Assembly: GCA_013202895.1 (NCBI GenBank)
Contig: JABMPR010000090.1
Coordinates: 1 to 32,763, forward strand
Direction: 5' to 3'
Length of the DNA: 32,763 bases
Source: a bacterium
GTDB taxonomy: Bacteria > Fidelibacterota > UBA8477 > JABMPR01
Shown one piece after another: positions 26,155 through 31,730 of the stretch. The position numbers and the translations under genes are program-made. A model generated the notes under the pieces. The model saw nothing but the letters and a program-made list of their open reading frames with translations. It ran no database searches and had not been told where the DNA came from. Every line of letters begins with the position of its first letter. Position 1 is the stretch's first letter.

Positions 26155-29133
26155 ATGTTCAAACAGGTCCTATCTCTTAAGCATCGGCCCGGTTATAGAG
26201 ATATGATGGCTCATCGGGTTCATGAAATTTTATTGATTTCAAGCTTATACGATGCCTTTAAGCTGGAAGAAGATGGTCGTCTCGCTGAAATGGTTTTCAC
26301 AGAGTATCAGGATATGAATCTTTCTAATGCCCCCAGAATCACACGCGTTTCTACCGCTGATCATGCGCTCAGGCGCTTACGCGCTCGTCATTATGATCTG
26401 GTAATTACAATGACCAGAATATCCGATATGAACCCCTTTAAATTGGGTCGCAAGATTAAAAATATTTTTGCCAGTATACCGGTAATTATGTTGGCATCAA
26501 ACCGTCGCGAATATACCTGGGCGATTGAAAGGGTTGAACGTACTGAAGGGATAGACAAAGCATTTATCTGGCATGGCGATTCAAGTATTTTCACTGCGAT
26601 TATCAAATACATCGAAGATGACATGAATGCTCCACGGGATATCCTGAAGGGTGGCGCTCGAGCAATTATTGTGATTGAGGATTCCCCGAAATATTATTCA
26701 ATTTTTTTGCCCATGCTCTATAAGGCCATCATTAATACGACCCGTGAATTGATGAAGAATGAGTATAATGATGAATTGCGACTTTTTCGAATGCGATCCC
26801 GGCCAAAGATTCTATTGGCATCAACTTTTGAGGAGGCTACCCATTTATACCGGAAGTACAAAAACAATTTACTCGCAGTTGTCACCGATGTCAGCTATCC
26901 CAACAAAGGGAAACTTGATAAAAAGGCAGGTGCTAAGTTTATCGAGATCGTCCAGAAGAAAAATCCTAGCATGCCTATCATTATGCAATCCATGGATGCC
27001 GCAAACGAAGCCACCGCGACGGAATTGGGTGCCTATTTCCTGGACAAGAGTTCACCACATTTAATTCAGAGTTTGCAGTACTTTATCATGCGGCACTGTG
27101 GATTCGGTGATTTGGAGTTCAGTACCAAGGAAGGTCAGACCATCACAAAAGTGCGTCATCTAAATGCCTTAACAACAGCACTTTCCTCAGTACCTATACA
27201 GAGCATCGAGTATCATGCTCGTCGGGATCATTTTTCAAACTGGTTGGCTGTTCGTGGTCACTTTGATCTGGCCGATTATCTTAAACCAATTAATATCGAT
27301 GATTTTGAAAATCCTGAGGAATTCAGGGAGATTTTGCTTGAGGCGATCTCAACCCAACGCAAGCACCAACAATTTGATCATTTGGGCTATTTTAATATTG
27401 ATACATATGATCCAGCAATAAAGGCTATTCGTATCGGTGGTGGATCGATTGGTGGAAAAGCACGTGGTTTAGCCTTTCTCAGAGCACATATGCGTCGCTT
27501 TAACCTGGATCTGAAATACCCTGAAATTAAGGTTGATGTCCCAACATTCGCTGTGATTGCAACAAATGTATTCGATCGTTTTCTTGAAATCAATAACTTA
27601 CGCTCACATGTGCTTGCAGCGGAATCCAACACTGAGATTGATGCGGTCTTTCGTAAGGCAGTATTCCCAGGAAATTTTACAGACGAATTACGTACCTATC
27701 TTGGAAATCATTCCGGTCCCCTGGCAGTACGCTCTTCCAGTTTGCTTGAGGATTCACTTTTTCAACCATTTGCTGGAATTTACAATACCTACATGCTACC
27801 AAATAACGCTCCGGCACTTGATACCCGTGTTTTCCAATTGTTGGAAGCCATTAAATTGGTATATGCCTCCGGGTTTTATAAGGAAGCCAGCGCTTACCTT
27901 ACATCTACCGGAAATCTCCCAGAAGATGAAAAAATGGCAGTTGTAATCCAACACTTGAGCGGAAAGAGACACGAAAACTATTATTACCCTAATTTATCTG
28001 GAGTGATCCAAACCCTTAATTATTATCCTCAAGGTTCTATGACCCGTGAGGAAGGCTTGGTCACAATGGCTCTTGGATTGGGACGTATCGTTGTAAATGG
28101 TGAAAAAGCCCTAAAATTCAGTCCCCATAGACCCAATATTTTCCCTCAATTTTTCGATGAACAATCGATTCTGAAAAATAGTCAGAATCATTTTTATGCT
28201 TTGGACATGACAGAGAATGACGCAGCACTTGAACACGGAGAGGGCTCAAATCTAGTCCAATTGGATCTCAAAACCGCAGAGGAACATGGTAGCCTTGATC
28301 AAATCGCCAGTGTCTATTCACTCCAGGATGGTCAATTTCGAGACAACCTTTTTGAGCCTGGTCCCAGAATCATCACATTTGCAAATATCCTTAAATGGAA
28401 ATCATTTCCCCTGGCAAATTTGTTAGCTGATCTTATGGAATTCGGGAAACTCGGGATGGGCTGCGATGTTGAAATGGAATTTGCAGTTAATTTGCTTGAT
28501 GATAAAAGCCAGGCGGCAGAGCTCTCCATATTGCAGATAAGACCTATGGTAACCTTTGAACGACCCCATGTAGTGGATGTGCAACTGGCTGAGGCGGGTG
28601 ATGAACTTTTCCATAGTAAAATATGTCTGGGCAATGGCGATAATATCGATATTCATGATCTGATCTATATCGATTTGGAAACGTTTAACATCCTCGAAAG
28701 TCATAAGATTGCACAAGAAATCCGGGATATGAATCAAAATTTTAGTCCCGACAAACCTTATATACTGGTTGGACCAGGTCGGTGGGGCACGGCAGACCCC
28801 ACGTTGGGTATCCCCGTAAACTGGAATTATATTTCAAATGCCAGATCTATCGTCGAAGTTGGTCTTCCTGATTTATATGTGGAGCCTTCATTCGGTAGTC
28901 ATTTCTTTCAAAATATTACTTCCCTTGGGATCAGTTATTTTACCATACCTCCCCGCCTTCTGAAAGAAAAGATGAACCTGGAATGGTTCAAGAGCCAAAC
29001 CCCAACGACCAAGACCAAGTATCTAAAGCACTTTCAGTTTGATCAAAACTTCATTATTCAGGTAAATGGCAGCAAAGGTGAAGGGCATGTCTGGCGGCCG
29101 GGGTGTCGTGAATCACAGACAGAAGCAATTTGA
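26155..29133 (+). CDS. Receiver-like domains fused to a PEP/pyruvate-binding (PPDK N-terminal, ATP-grasp) domain
   Basis: ATP-grasp motifs GGGSIGGKARGLAFLRAH, GPLAVRSSSLLEDSLFQPFAGIYNTYM, MALGLGRIVVNGEKALKF, DVEMEFAVN...LSILQIRPM; second receiver-like segment IIVIEDSPKYY...AVVTDVSYPNKG...IIMQSMDA...YFLDKSSP; C-terminal ILVGPGRWGTADPTLGIPVNW...PSFGSHFFQNITS. Confidence 0.85.
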   Translation: MFKQVLSLKHRPGYRDMMAHRVHEILLISSLYDAFKLEEDGRLAEMVFTEYQDMNLSNAPRITRVSTADHALRRLRARHYDLVITMTRISDMNPFKLGRKIKNIFASIPVIMLASNRREYTWAIERVERTEGIDKAFIWHGDSSIFTAIIKYIEDDMNAPRDILKGGARAIIVIEDSPKYYSIFLPMLYKAIINTTRELMKNEYNDELRLFRMRSRPKILLASTFEEATHLYRKYKNNLLAVVTDVSYPNKGKLDKKAGAKFIEIVQKKNPSMPIIMQSMDAANEATATELGAYFLDKSSPHLIQSLQYFIMRHCGFGDLEFSTKEGQTITKVRHLNALTTALSSVPIQSIEYHARRDHFSNWLAVRGHFDLADYLKPINIDDFENPEEFREILLEAISTQRKHQQFDHLGYFNIDTYDPAIKAIRIGGGSIGGKARGLAFLRAHMRRFNLDLKYPEIKVDVPTFAVIATNVFDRFLEINNLRSHVLAAESNTEIDAVFRKAVFPGNFTDELRTYLGNHSGPLAVRSSSLLEDSLFQPFAGIYNTYMLPNNAPALDTRVFQLLEAIKLVYASGFYKEASAYLTSTGNLPEDEKMAVVIQHLSGKRHENYYYPNLSGVIQTLNYYPQGSMTREEGLVTMALGLGRIVVNGEKALKFSPHRPNIFPQFFDEQSILKNSQNHFYALDMTENDAALEHGEGSNLVQLDLKTAEEHGSLDQIASVYSLQDGQFRDNLFEPGPRIITFANILKWKSFPLANLLADLMEFGKLGMGCDVEMEFAVNLLDDKSQAAELSILQIRPMVTFERPHVVDVQLAEAGDELFHSKICLGNGDNIDIHDLIYIDLETFNILESHKIAQEIRDMNQNFSPDKPYILVGPGRWGTADPTLGIPVNWNYISNARSIVEVGLPDLYVEPSFGSHFFQNITSLGISYFTIPPRLLKEKMNLEWFKSQTPTTKTKYLKHFQFDQNFIIQVNGSKGEGHVWRPGCRESQTEAI

Positions 29134-29203: not shown

Positions 29204-29644
29204 ATGCGTAATTCTTTTTTAACTATCATATGTGTTATGCTTATCAGCGGCATTGGCTTTGGACAGGAATCTGGTATTGGTATTGGTTTTTCCTCAAATG
29301 GGATAAGTGGGAAATATTGGTTGGACGAGACAAACGCCATCGTTGCACAGCTGGGTACTCAACTGGCTGCGAGTTATCTCATCCACAACCCCGAACTGCT
29401 TGAGCTCGTTGAGACCCCCACCCCCGTTTACTACGGCGCTGGTATAGTACTTGGAACCCACAAAGATGATGTTGAAGATAAGACCGAGATCGATGTAGGC
29501 ATAAATGGAGTAATTGGGATCAGCTACTATTTATCTAATTACCCCATGGATATCTTTTTTGAAGAGACTCCCACGCTTTATATAATGGGCGGAAAGGATA
29601 GCGAATTGTTTGGTTTCACTTTAGGAGTCCATTACTTTTTTTAG
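29204..29644 (+). CDS. Small secreted / outer-membrane-like hypothetical protein
   Basis: Signal peptide MRNSFLTIICVMLISGIGFGQ, Gly-rich beta-type sequence, terminal Phe (GVHYFF). Confidence 0.65.
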   Translation: MRNSFLTIICVMLISGIGFGQESGIGIGFSSNGISGKYWLDETNAIVAQLGTQLAASYLIHNPELLELVETPTPVYYGAGIVLGTHKDDVEDKTEIDVGINGVIGISYYLSNYPMDIFFEETPTLYIMGGKDSELFGFTLGVHYFF

Positions 29645-29855
29645 CAATCCTTTTTTAACTGAATGCATTGAATACATTGGATTTGGGATCAGAATCAGCG
29701 TCTAGAGCGAATCCGATTGTTAATAATCTAGTTACATTCTTTTATTGAAATTTAGGCTAAACCGATTAGTATTAGCATGTATAGAACTATGACGAATTGG
29801 GGAAGCGATTCATAGTATTGAAAGTATAAATTTAGATATCTTATGAGGTTACTTC

Positions 29856-31676
29856 GTGTCAGAACAGCTCCATAATTTTCATATTCCCGTAATGGGAACC
29901 GGCCACTCAGTTGACACACCAATTCGCCTGGCCCACTTGGGGATTACATCAGTGATTTCAATCATCGATGATCTCCTCCTGGAACGTTTGAGGAAGTACT
30001 ACACAGCACCGTACGATTTGCCCTATGAGCGCATATCTCCAAAAGATGTGGACAGCCGAGCCAAACGCATCACCGCTTATCTGGACATGGTCCATGATAT
30101 TGTTGAGATGAAAATGGAAAATATTCGTTCGCTACCCTTTTTCGAGAAGAATGAAAAAACTAGATATTTTGATCTTCTTCCTGATACCAGTCCGCTTAAA
30201 CAGAGCTATCAAGATCTTATGGCCATGAAACCTGGTGAAATACGAGAGAAAATTGCCAACGAGCTCAATCTCCGAATGCGTCCTGGTGATATCGATGTCA
30301 ATATCATGGTTAAAATTGATCGCATTGATATGGACAAGCATGGAACACCACTGGGTGAAGGATTTTCGGATGCTAAAGCTGCGTTACGCGGATTTGCAAA
30401 AAGTAAGCTTGAATCAGCCATGGTCTTTTCTGCGGGTATAAATCAAAGTCTTTATGGATACATGACGAAATACAAGGATTTCTACCGTGACCATGAGGGT
30501 GCGATAAAAAAGAAGATCATACTCAAAGTTAGCGATTTTCGCTCTGCAATGGTTCAGGGGCGTTATATGGCTAAAAAAGGGTTGGAAATCTCAGAGTTTA
30601 GAATTGAATCTGGTCTAAATTGCGGTGGACATGCATTCGCATCTCCCGGGCATCTACTACCGGTATTGCTTCAGGATTTCAAAGATAAGCGTAAAGAACT
30701 TGGTGCCCAATTTCAGCCAGTCATCCGACGCTTTTATGAAAAAATGGGTTGGGATTATCCTGATAACATAGAACATCACCCTGAAATAACTGTCCAGGGC
30801 GGCATTGGAAACCATGGAGAAGTTCAACGCCTTGAAAAGGGCTTCGGTATCGACCGGACTGGTTGGGCTACGCCTTTTTTGCTGGTACCAGAAGCTACTC
30901 CCATAGATACGCCAACACGGATGCAGTTGATGAACTCTACTGGAGATAGTCTTTATTTAAGTGGTGCTTCTCCATTGGGCGTTCCATTTAATAATTTAAA
31001 GGATTCAGGCTCAGAGAAATGGACTATGGATCGCTATTTAAAGGGCAAACCGGGTTCTCCCTGCCCCAAGAAATTTCTGGTTTCAAATACTGAATTTACC
31101 GACGCGCCCATTTGCACTGCATCTTCGGAATACATGGCTCTCAAATTGGAGCAGATAAATGCAAATTTTGAACCTGGAGCAGAAAAAGACCTAGCTATTG
31201 ATAAAGTGCTCGCGAAAACTTGCCTGTGCCAGCATCTCGCCAACGGTGCTTTGATAAGTCTTGGGATTGTCAAAGCCAGTAATTCCCCGCAGGCTATCTG
31301 CCCAGGACCAAATCTCTCCTGGTTCAATCGTAATTACTCTCTGGAAGAAATGGTGGATCAGATTTATGGTCGAGGTAAAGAACTCCTCTCGCCTGATCGT
31401 CCGCATATGTTCGCCAAGGAGATCCAACTTTATGTGGATTATTTTCAAACACTTGTTGAAGATGCAATTGGAAATGTAAGACAACAGAAAGCGTTAGATG
31501 CCTTCTATGATAATATGCAAAGGGGTTTTGATTTCTGTAAGCAGATTGCTAGGGATATCGCCTTTAAAGGAGAAAATCTTCCATCTCTCAGTGAGGCTGT
31601 TGAAAAGCAGGGTAAGCGTCTCCAGGAATTTTATGATAATTTTATAGAGAAAATCAACAGCGAATCTCTGGTTTAA
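29856..31676 (+). CDS. Uncharacterised 606-aa protein, divergent nitronate-monooxygenase-like (FMN TIM-barrel) candidate with Cys cluster
   Basis: GTG start; FHIPVMGTGHSVDTPIRLAHLGITSVIS, ESGLNCGGHAF (compare AGGH of NMO), ITVQGGIGNHGEVQRLEKGFGIDRTGWATPFLLVPEA (compare GGI...G...GT.FL..E); extra Cys at residues 403, 420, 456, 458, 482. Confidence 0.6.
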   Translation: MSEQLHNFHIPVMGTGHSVDTPIRLAHLGITSVISIIDDLLLERLRKYYTAPYDLPYERISPKDVDSRAKRITAYLDMVHDIVEMKMENIRSLPFFEKNEKTRYFDLLPDTSPLKQSYQDLMAMKPGEIREKIANELNLRMRPGDIDVNIMVKIDRIDMDKHGTPLGEGFSDAKAALRGFAKSKLESAMVFSAGINQSLYGYMTKYKDFYRDHEGAIKKKIILKVSDFRSAMVQGRYMAKKGLEISEFRIESGLNCGGHAFASPGHLLPVLLQDFKDKRKELGAQFQPVIRRFYEKMGWDYPDNIEHHPEITVQGGIGNHGEVQRLEKGFGIDRTGWATPFLLVPEATPIDTPTRMQLMNSTGDSLYLSGASPLGVPFNNLKDSGSEKWTMDRYLKGKPGSPCPKKFLVSNTEFTDAPICTASSEYMALKLEQINANFEPGAEKDLAIDKVLAKTCLCQHLANGALISLGIVKASNSPQAICPGPNLSWFNRNYSLEEMVDQIYGRGKELLSPDRPHMFAKEIQLYVDYFQTLVEDAIGNVRQQKALDAFYDNMQRGFDFCKQIARDIAFKGENLPSLSEAVEKQGKRLQEFYDNFIEKINSESLV

Positions 31677-31700
31677 TTTTACAAACAATTAAAGACTCGA

Positions 31701-31730
31701 AAAGCGCGGCTCAAAATCCGCGCTTTTTTC
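31701..31730 (+). terminator. Rho-independent terminator of the 606-aa gene
   Basis: AAAGCGCGG-N8-CCGCGCTTT followed by T run (CCGCGCTTTTTTC). Confidence 0.85.

Follow-up and report, generated by a model that had tools for sequence, protein, structure and literature searches.

A conserved 606-residue protein family of Candidatus Neomarinimicrobiota is a deeply divergent variant of the NMO/FabK/FabX superfamily and appears to be a distant cousin of FabX

The window, i.e., the whole stretch of 32,763 nucleotides that was analysed, belongs to a genome of Candidatus Neomarinimicrobiota (3.6 Mb, 362 contigs) and carries an open reading frame (ORF) for a 606-aa protein close to its 3' end (Table 1). 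A position check on the sequence found the ORF and the motifs quoted in the original prediction where they had been placed, i.e., PVMGTGHSVDTPIRLAHLGITSVIS (residues 11-35), C256-G-G-H259 (C256 codon at 30621), VQGGIGNHGE (starting at residue 313), and the cysteines C403, C420, C456-x-C458, and C482. Promoter pattern matches near the ORF were fewer than in shuffled sequences and were disregarded. Downstream of the gene, a stem-loop followed by a U-run was missed by a simple pattern scan for terminators; the earlier claim of a strong terminator holds because of the energy and z-score at which this element folds (Table 1). The gene had also been described as monocistronic, in agreement with its surroundings: within the genus it is flanked by a separate outer-membrane-like ORF and a convergent glutamate dehydrogenase gene, and in other genera by other neighbours.

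Within the genus, the gene order is Kor oxidoreductase, PPDK-domain protein, small secreted protein, 606-aa gene, and convergent glutamate dehydrogenase. In nearly all families examined outside the genus, the gene has other neighbours, and no operon or neighbourhood clue was obtained there. The 992-aa PPDK_N protein is 73-80% identical among the genus loci and lies 5' of the 606-aa gene in every locus reaching that far. The 146-aa protein evolves much faster in these loci (41-56% identity) than its neighbours and was not detected by tblastn in some genus genomes (L003, L004, L008). One of them carries two additional genes for proteins of 432 and 364 aa (L003:2104-4493) between the PPDK-domain gene and the gene for the ferredoxin subunit of Kor; the Kor-to-PPDK interval is about 2.6-2.8 kb in most other genus genomes and about 0.2-0.3 kb in L012 and in the window.

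Table 1. Coordinates of the features discussed in the text (window positions, unless another locus is named)
Feature	Position	Strand	Basis or remark
992-aa protein, two response-regulator receiver-like stretches and PPDK_N ATP-binding domain	26155-29133	+	Pfam
146-aa secreted/outer-membrane-like protein	29204-29644	+	no Pfam match
Ribosome-binding-like site GAGGT	29845..29849	+	6 nt 5' of GTG; read from sequence
ORF for 606-aa FabX-like, predicted flavin/iron-sulfur protein	29856..31676	+	GTG start; ORF listing, alignment, model
Beta-1 motif HIPVMGTG (residues 9-16)	29880..29903	+	counterpart of FabX IQGGMGVG; QGG lost
Family-specific helical insert, beta-2/beta-3 (residues about 50-145)	30003..30290	+	alignment, model
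N149 of IDVNIM	30300..30302	+	aligns with FMN-binding FabX N99; invariant in all groups compared (PMC8626469)
Helix after beta-5 (residues 229-241)	30540..30578	+	counterpart of FabX ACP-binding alpha-7 (PMC8626469)
C256-G-G-H259 catalytic-His motif	30621..30632	+	H259 aligns with FabX H182
QGG (314-316), beta-7 FMN loop	30795..30803	+	aligns with FabX G220-G221
WATPF (337-341), beta-8 end	30864..30878	+	aligns with FabX MATRF
SPLG (372-375)	30969..30980	+	S372 aligns with FabX S273, holder of catalytic His (PMC8626469)
C403, predicted [4Fe-4S] ligand	31062..31064	+	aligns with FabX C300 and first CxC-branch Cys
C420, predicted [4Fe-4S] ligand	31113..31115	+	aligns with FabX C320 (2 of 3 alignments) and second CxC-branch Cys
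C456-L-C458, predicted [4Fe-4S] ligand pair	31221..31229	+	aligns with CLCNxL of CxC branch; absent in FabX
C482 of ICPGPN	31299..31301	+	invariant; aligns with FabX FMN-contact F339 (PMC8626469)
RPHMF signature (515-519)	31398..31412	+	invariant in family; without counterpart in FabX
C-terminal helical extension (residues 518-605)	31407..31670	+	AlphaFold2 model
Intrinsic terminator, stem-loop and U-run	31700..31729	+	-17.7 kcal/mol, z = -5.1
CxC-branch genes	L103:876-2324, L105:927-2330, L106:1471-2892, L107:1471-2895		four invariant Cys (C, C, CLC)

The 606-aa protein represents a real, conserved family that has no entry in the protein-family catalogues searched. Members were present in 36 of 199 genomes and 11 of 76 genera of the Neomarinimicrobiota, with identities from 84% down to about 42% over nearly the whole length, and the closest records were 82% identical to the 606-aa protein. 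A single-sequence search of genome contigs returned matches in Neomarinimicrobiota only, and relatives were not found among the plasmids, phages, and viral contigs searched. Searches of Pfam, NCBIfam, and PDB sequences gave no match that survived inspection, so that the check for a clear match to a characterised family came out negative; SpaO and ToxS fragments obtained with phmmer, as well as ribosomal L35 from a profile search, were considered as solved relatives and dismissed as short, weak chance matches. At E ≤ 1, neither PF03060 (run against 15 family members) nor the FabK model TIGR03151 matched the family. The PfaD family (TIGR02814) belongs to the same superfamily, and its model matched neither the 606-aa protein at E ≤ 1 nor, in the family search, any protein of the window's genome. 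In an alignment of 15 diverse members, 126 of the 606 columns (21%) were invariant, including six of the seven cysteines; the seventh, C561, is not conserved. In the conservation check on C256, H259, and the five C-terminal cysteines (C403, C420, C456, C458, and C482), all were invariant in these 15 members and in 30 distinct full-length sequences, so the motifs are more than chance.

The fold had been assigned by eye to the FMN TIM barrels of the NMO (nitronate monooxygenase)/FabK type, an assignment that is backed by an AlphaFold2 model, by Foldseek, and by profile-profile comparison against shuffles, with FMN itself being predicted. The model, computed from the 15-sequence alignment, has eight barrel strands (pLDDT 84.1, pTM 0.86). 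Foldseek against the PDB ranked FabX of Helicobacter pylori first (9jsy; E 7e-7, probability 1.00, target-normalised TM 0.63), followed by FabK, TM0800, PA1024, and nitronate monooxygenases, and all 14 matches at E ≤ 1e-3 belong to the NMO/FabK/FabX superfamily. FabX is a decanoyl-ACP dehydrogenase/isomerase (PDB 7e1q, 9jsy; PMC8626469) whose barrel binds FMN and whose [4Fe-4S] cluster, 13.4 Å from the FMN, is coordinated by C300, C304, C308, and C320; its catalytic H182 is held by S273, and the cluster domain stands where FabK has its NAD(P)H site (PMC8626469). In 2021, FabX was described as the sole [4Fe-4S] enzyme among the NMO-family members characterised until then (PMC8626469), and a literature search for another such enzyme found none. 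The 606-aa family appears to be a distant cousin of this Helicobacter enzyme, a maker of unsaturated fatty acids. The C-terminal sequence of about 250 aa and the large inserts had been regarded as unlike standard NMOs. Inserts are present in the alignment and the model, and the C-terminal part has to be divided. Some 270 residues follow the barrel; the stretch from about residue 345 to residue 504 matches the cluster subdomain of FabX together with an insert, and only the last approximately 100 residues are unmatched.

The CLCNGL motif occurs in actinobacterial 'nitronate monooxygenases', and a consensus-like query built on this motif was used to search for proteins of this type (hereafter CxC branch). 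Matches were obtained in Streptomyces (L103), Nonomuraea (L104), and Deinococcus (L105); the branch is also present in two Neomarinimicrobiota genomes (L106, L107), and both members run against Pfam (L103 and L105) passed PF03060. For comparison with hhalign, the NMO-type genes of the phylum were sorted into FabX orthologues (13) and FabK/NMO types. The orthologue L074 matched PDB FabX chains at an E-value of about 1e-80, and L074-L090, which are 48-79% identical to L074 and show the C-x3-C-x3-C-...-C pattern, occur in 20 of the 199 Neomarinimicrobiota genomes. Only one genome holds both a FabX-type and a family gene, which is compatible with chance (Fisher two-sided p 0.13), and mutual exclusion of the two was dropped as an idea. 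The family aligned to the 13 FabX orthologues with scores of 46-51 over 236-243 columns (maximum of 60 column shuffles 24.7), pairing CGGH with AGGH, VQGGI with AAGGI, WATPF with MATRF, SPLGVP with SPVGMP, C403 with FabX C300, and C420 with FabX C320. The score against the CxC branch was 38-40 over 311 columns (residues 132-503), barely exceeding the best of 60 shuffles (35.3), and the comparison with FabK/NMO was the weakest (score 28 over 74 columns; shuffles to 24.8).

In the maximum-likelihood tree, the family was monophyletic (support 100/100), with a stem length of about 4 changes per site. Its union with the CxC branch had support of 86/74, is not starred, and is a place where long branches meet; unions with FabX (p-AU 0.53) and with FabK/NMO (0.20) were not rejected, under the same long-branch warning. 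Because these alternative unions were not rejected and the branches are long, the family is labelled a deeply divergent variant of the NMO/FabK/FabX superfamily, and not a FabX, FabK, PfaD, or NMO. Membership in the superfamily, as originally proposed, is supported; FabX and the CxC branch, and not generic NMOs, appear to be its nearest kin.

Classical nitronate monooxygenases (PF03060) share with the family the barrel, which is predicted for the latter, and the catalytic His in GGH (H259, invariant), but carry QGGM after beta-1 in place of VMGTG and are without the cluster segment. FabK (FMN enoyl-ACP reductase II, TIGR03151) has the barrel, GGH, and FMN loops in common with the family, but has an NAD(P)H-binding part. 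At the position of S372, FabX and the CxC branch likewise have serine, but FabK/NMO sequences have R or K; the latter also lack the C-terminal cysteines shared by FabX, the CxC branch, and the family. We consider it very improbable that the 606-aa protein is an ordinary enoyl-ACP reductase or nitronate monooxygenase with a decorative tail; structures of FabK and NMOs are indeed among the Foldseek matches (E 1e-6 to 1e-4), but the failure of all three models (PF03060, TIGR03151, TIGR02814), the short FabK/NMO profile match, the Cys segment in place of the FabK NAD(P)H region, and the serine at 372 argue against it.

With FabX, the family shares the TIM barrel, the catalytic His with its holding Ser, the FMN glycine loops, the VNIM and SPxG motifs, and a C-terminal cysteine subdomain. 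N149, G257, H259, G315, G316, S372, and G484 are invariant in the family and all align with FMN or active-site residues of FabX (N99, G180, H182, G220-G221, S273, and G341), and FabX A242 and T243 are kept as A/G338 and T/S339. Changed positions are the beta-1 QGG (V-M-G), E175 (S252), Q240 (G336), S179 (C256), and F339 (C482), and flavin binding must differ in detail because Q240, E175, and the beta-1 QGG are not kept. The family further differs from FabX in a 95-residue insert after beta-2, a helix of about 30 residues after the catalytic His, a C-terminal helical extension of about 100 residues, and the lack of a significant single-sequence match. Altered FMN contacts (Q240 to G, E175 to S) would also fit a degenerate, non-catalytic member acting as sensor or scaffold, but invariance of the catalytic His, of the Ser that holds it, of the glycine loops, and of the discussed cysteines across 42-84% identity is unlike the pattern of decayed enzymes, and we regard this explanation as extremely improbable.

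The C-terminal cysteines C403, C420, C456, and C458 are equivalent to the four invariant cysteines of the CxC branch, with which they were paired by hhalign and, in agreement, by a MAFFT alignment of all 41 sequences. In both groups these residues follow SPxxxPF in the order C, C, C-x-C, and the two also share GGH, an insert between beta-2 and beta-3, and S at the position of S372. Unlike the family, CxC-branch proteins are 468-483 aa long (18-20% identity), retain QGGMGVG and Q, have T in place of C482, are without the C-terminal helical extension, and possess an insert of their own after beta-4. FabX ligands are spaced C-x3-C-x3-C-x11-C vs C-x16-C-x35-C-x-C in the family, and only the first and last FabX ligands align (C300 and C320 with C403 and C420); an alignment of FabX with the CxC branch instead puts C320 on the CxC pair and not on the counterpart of C420, so that the FabX pairing has lower certainty than that with the CxC branch. 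Because of the alignment with the CxC-branch cysteines, and of C403 and C420 also with FabX ligands, a [4Fe-4S] cluster on C403, C420, C456, and C458 is the best reading, and by the same argument the CxC branch too may hold such a cluster. All five C-terminal cysteines had been put forward as potential metal or Fe-S ligands, of which C482 was dropped as a cluster ligand. It aligns with F339 of FabX, which contacts FMN, and with T in the CxC branch, and is most likely located at the flavin rather than on the cluster.

The spacing of the four invariant cysteines could also hold zinc, and the [4Fe-4S] cluster is predicted from alignment, so that binding of zinc or another structural metal, or disulfide formation, in an FMN enzyme that lacks a redox cluster has to be weighed. 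However, proven [4Fe-4S] ligands of FabX are the aligned counterparts of C403 and C420, which follow the shared SPxG segment, and disulfides would be unlikely in a cytoplasmic protein; this alternative is quite unlikely in our view. If the cluster assignment is true, the cluster-bearing side of the NMO superfamily extends beyond FabX, and its [4Fe-4S] clusters use at least two ligand layouts, the FabX type and the CxC type.

Residues 226-259, i.e., the segment from beta-5 to the catalytic His, align gap-free with FabX 149-182 and include the helix 229-241, which is basic at 229, 236, 240, and 241. In FabX, K152, K159, and R164 touch ACP, the contact set being K152, I156, K159, R160, and R164 (PMC8626469). 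These face R229, I/V233, K/R236, F/Y237, and K241 of the family, i.e., the charge is kept at three of the four basic positions and R160 is not kept.

The 606-aa protein is probably a soluble oxidoreductase of the NMO/FabK/FabX superfamily that depends on FMN and comes from the branch with a [4Fe-4S] subdomain after the barrel; its likely substrate is an acyl thioester. FMN would sit in the TIM barrel, and H259, held by S372, would take a proton from the carbon beside an activating carbonyl, with hydride passing to FMN; the steps would be reversed when reducing. The predicted cluster would occupy the place of the FabK NAD(P)H site and pass single electrons to and from FMN and an external partner. 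The substrate could be carried on an acyl carrier protein docked at the basic helix 229-241, and the activity would be that of an acyl-thioester dehydrogenase/isomerase or ene-reductase. We infer cofactors, electron path, direction, partner, and substrate from homology. If true, this reading assigns a highly conserved protein of a largely uncultured phylum, which has no name in Pfam or NCBIfam, to an enzyme class that can be tested and for which catalytic and ligand residues are specified.

A rather unlikely alternative within the same superfamily is an FMN/[4Fe-4S] enzyme that is not a fatty-acid enzyme but resembles other low-potential ene-reductases or dehydrogenases with flavin and iron-sulfur cofactors; its substrate would be a small free metabolite, and ferredoxin its electron partner. 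This alternative would be consistent with the genus neighbourhood, where the gene adjoins a ferredoxin-dependent 2-oxoacid oxidoreductase, the PPDK-domain protein, and glutamate dehydrogenase, and where, as in the other genomes looked at, fatty-acid or ACP genes near the family gene were not identified; the near-absent (though chance-compatible) co-occurrence with FabX-like genes and the large inserts, which suggest a remodelled active-site mouth, point in the same direction. This neighbourhood, however, is kept only within the genus, and a carrier-borne substrate, as in the preferred acyl-thioester reading, is favoured by the gap-free alignment of residues 226-259, in which basic residues occupy positions of ACP contact.

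According to the alignment with FabX, C256 and C482 fall at FMN-contact positions and would lie at the flavin. The combination of a CxC-type [4Fe-4S] cluster with these two cysteines might define a separate class with a reaction unlike those of FabX, FabK, and NMO, e.g., a ferredoxin-linked low-potential reduction or an electron-bifurcating step, in which C256 and C482 would possibly form a cysteinyl-FMN link or a redox-active pair; we hold this to be doubtful. The Cys before GGH had been highlighted in the original prediction as an unusual mark, which it is not: an ordinary 325-aa NMO/FabK-like protein of the same phylum (L099:223-1197, minus strand) has FECGGH, and Cys in CGGH is therefore not diagnostic.
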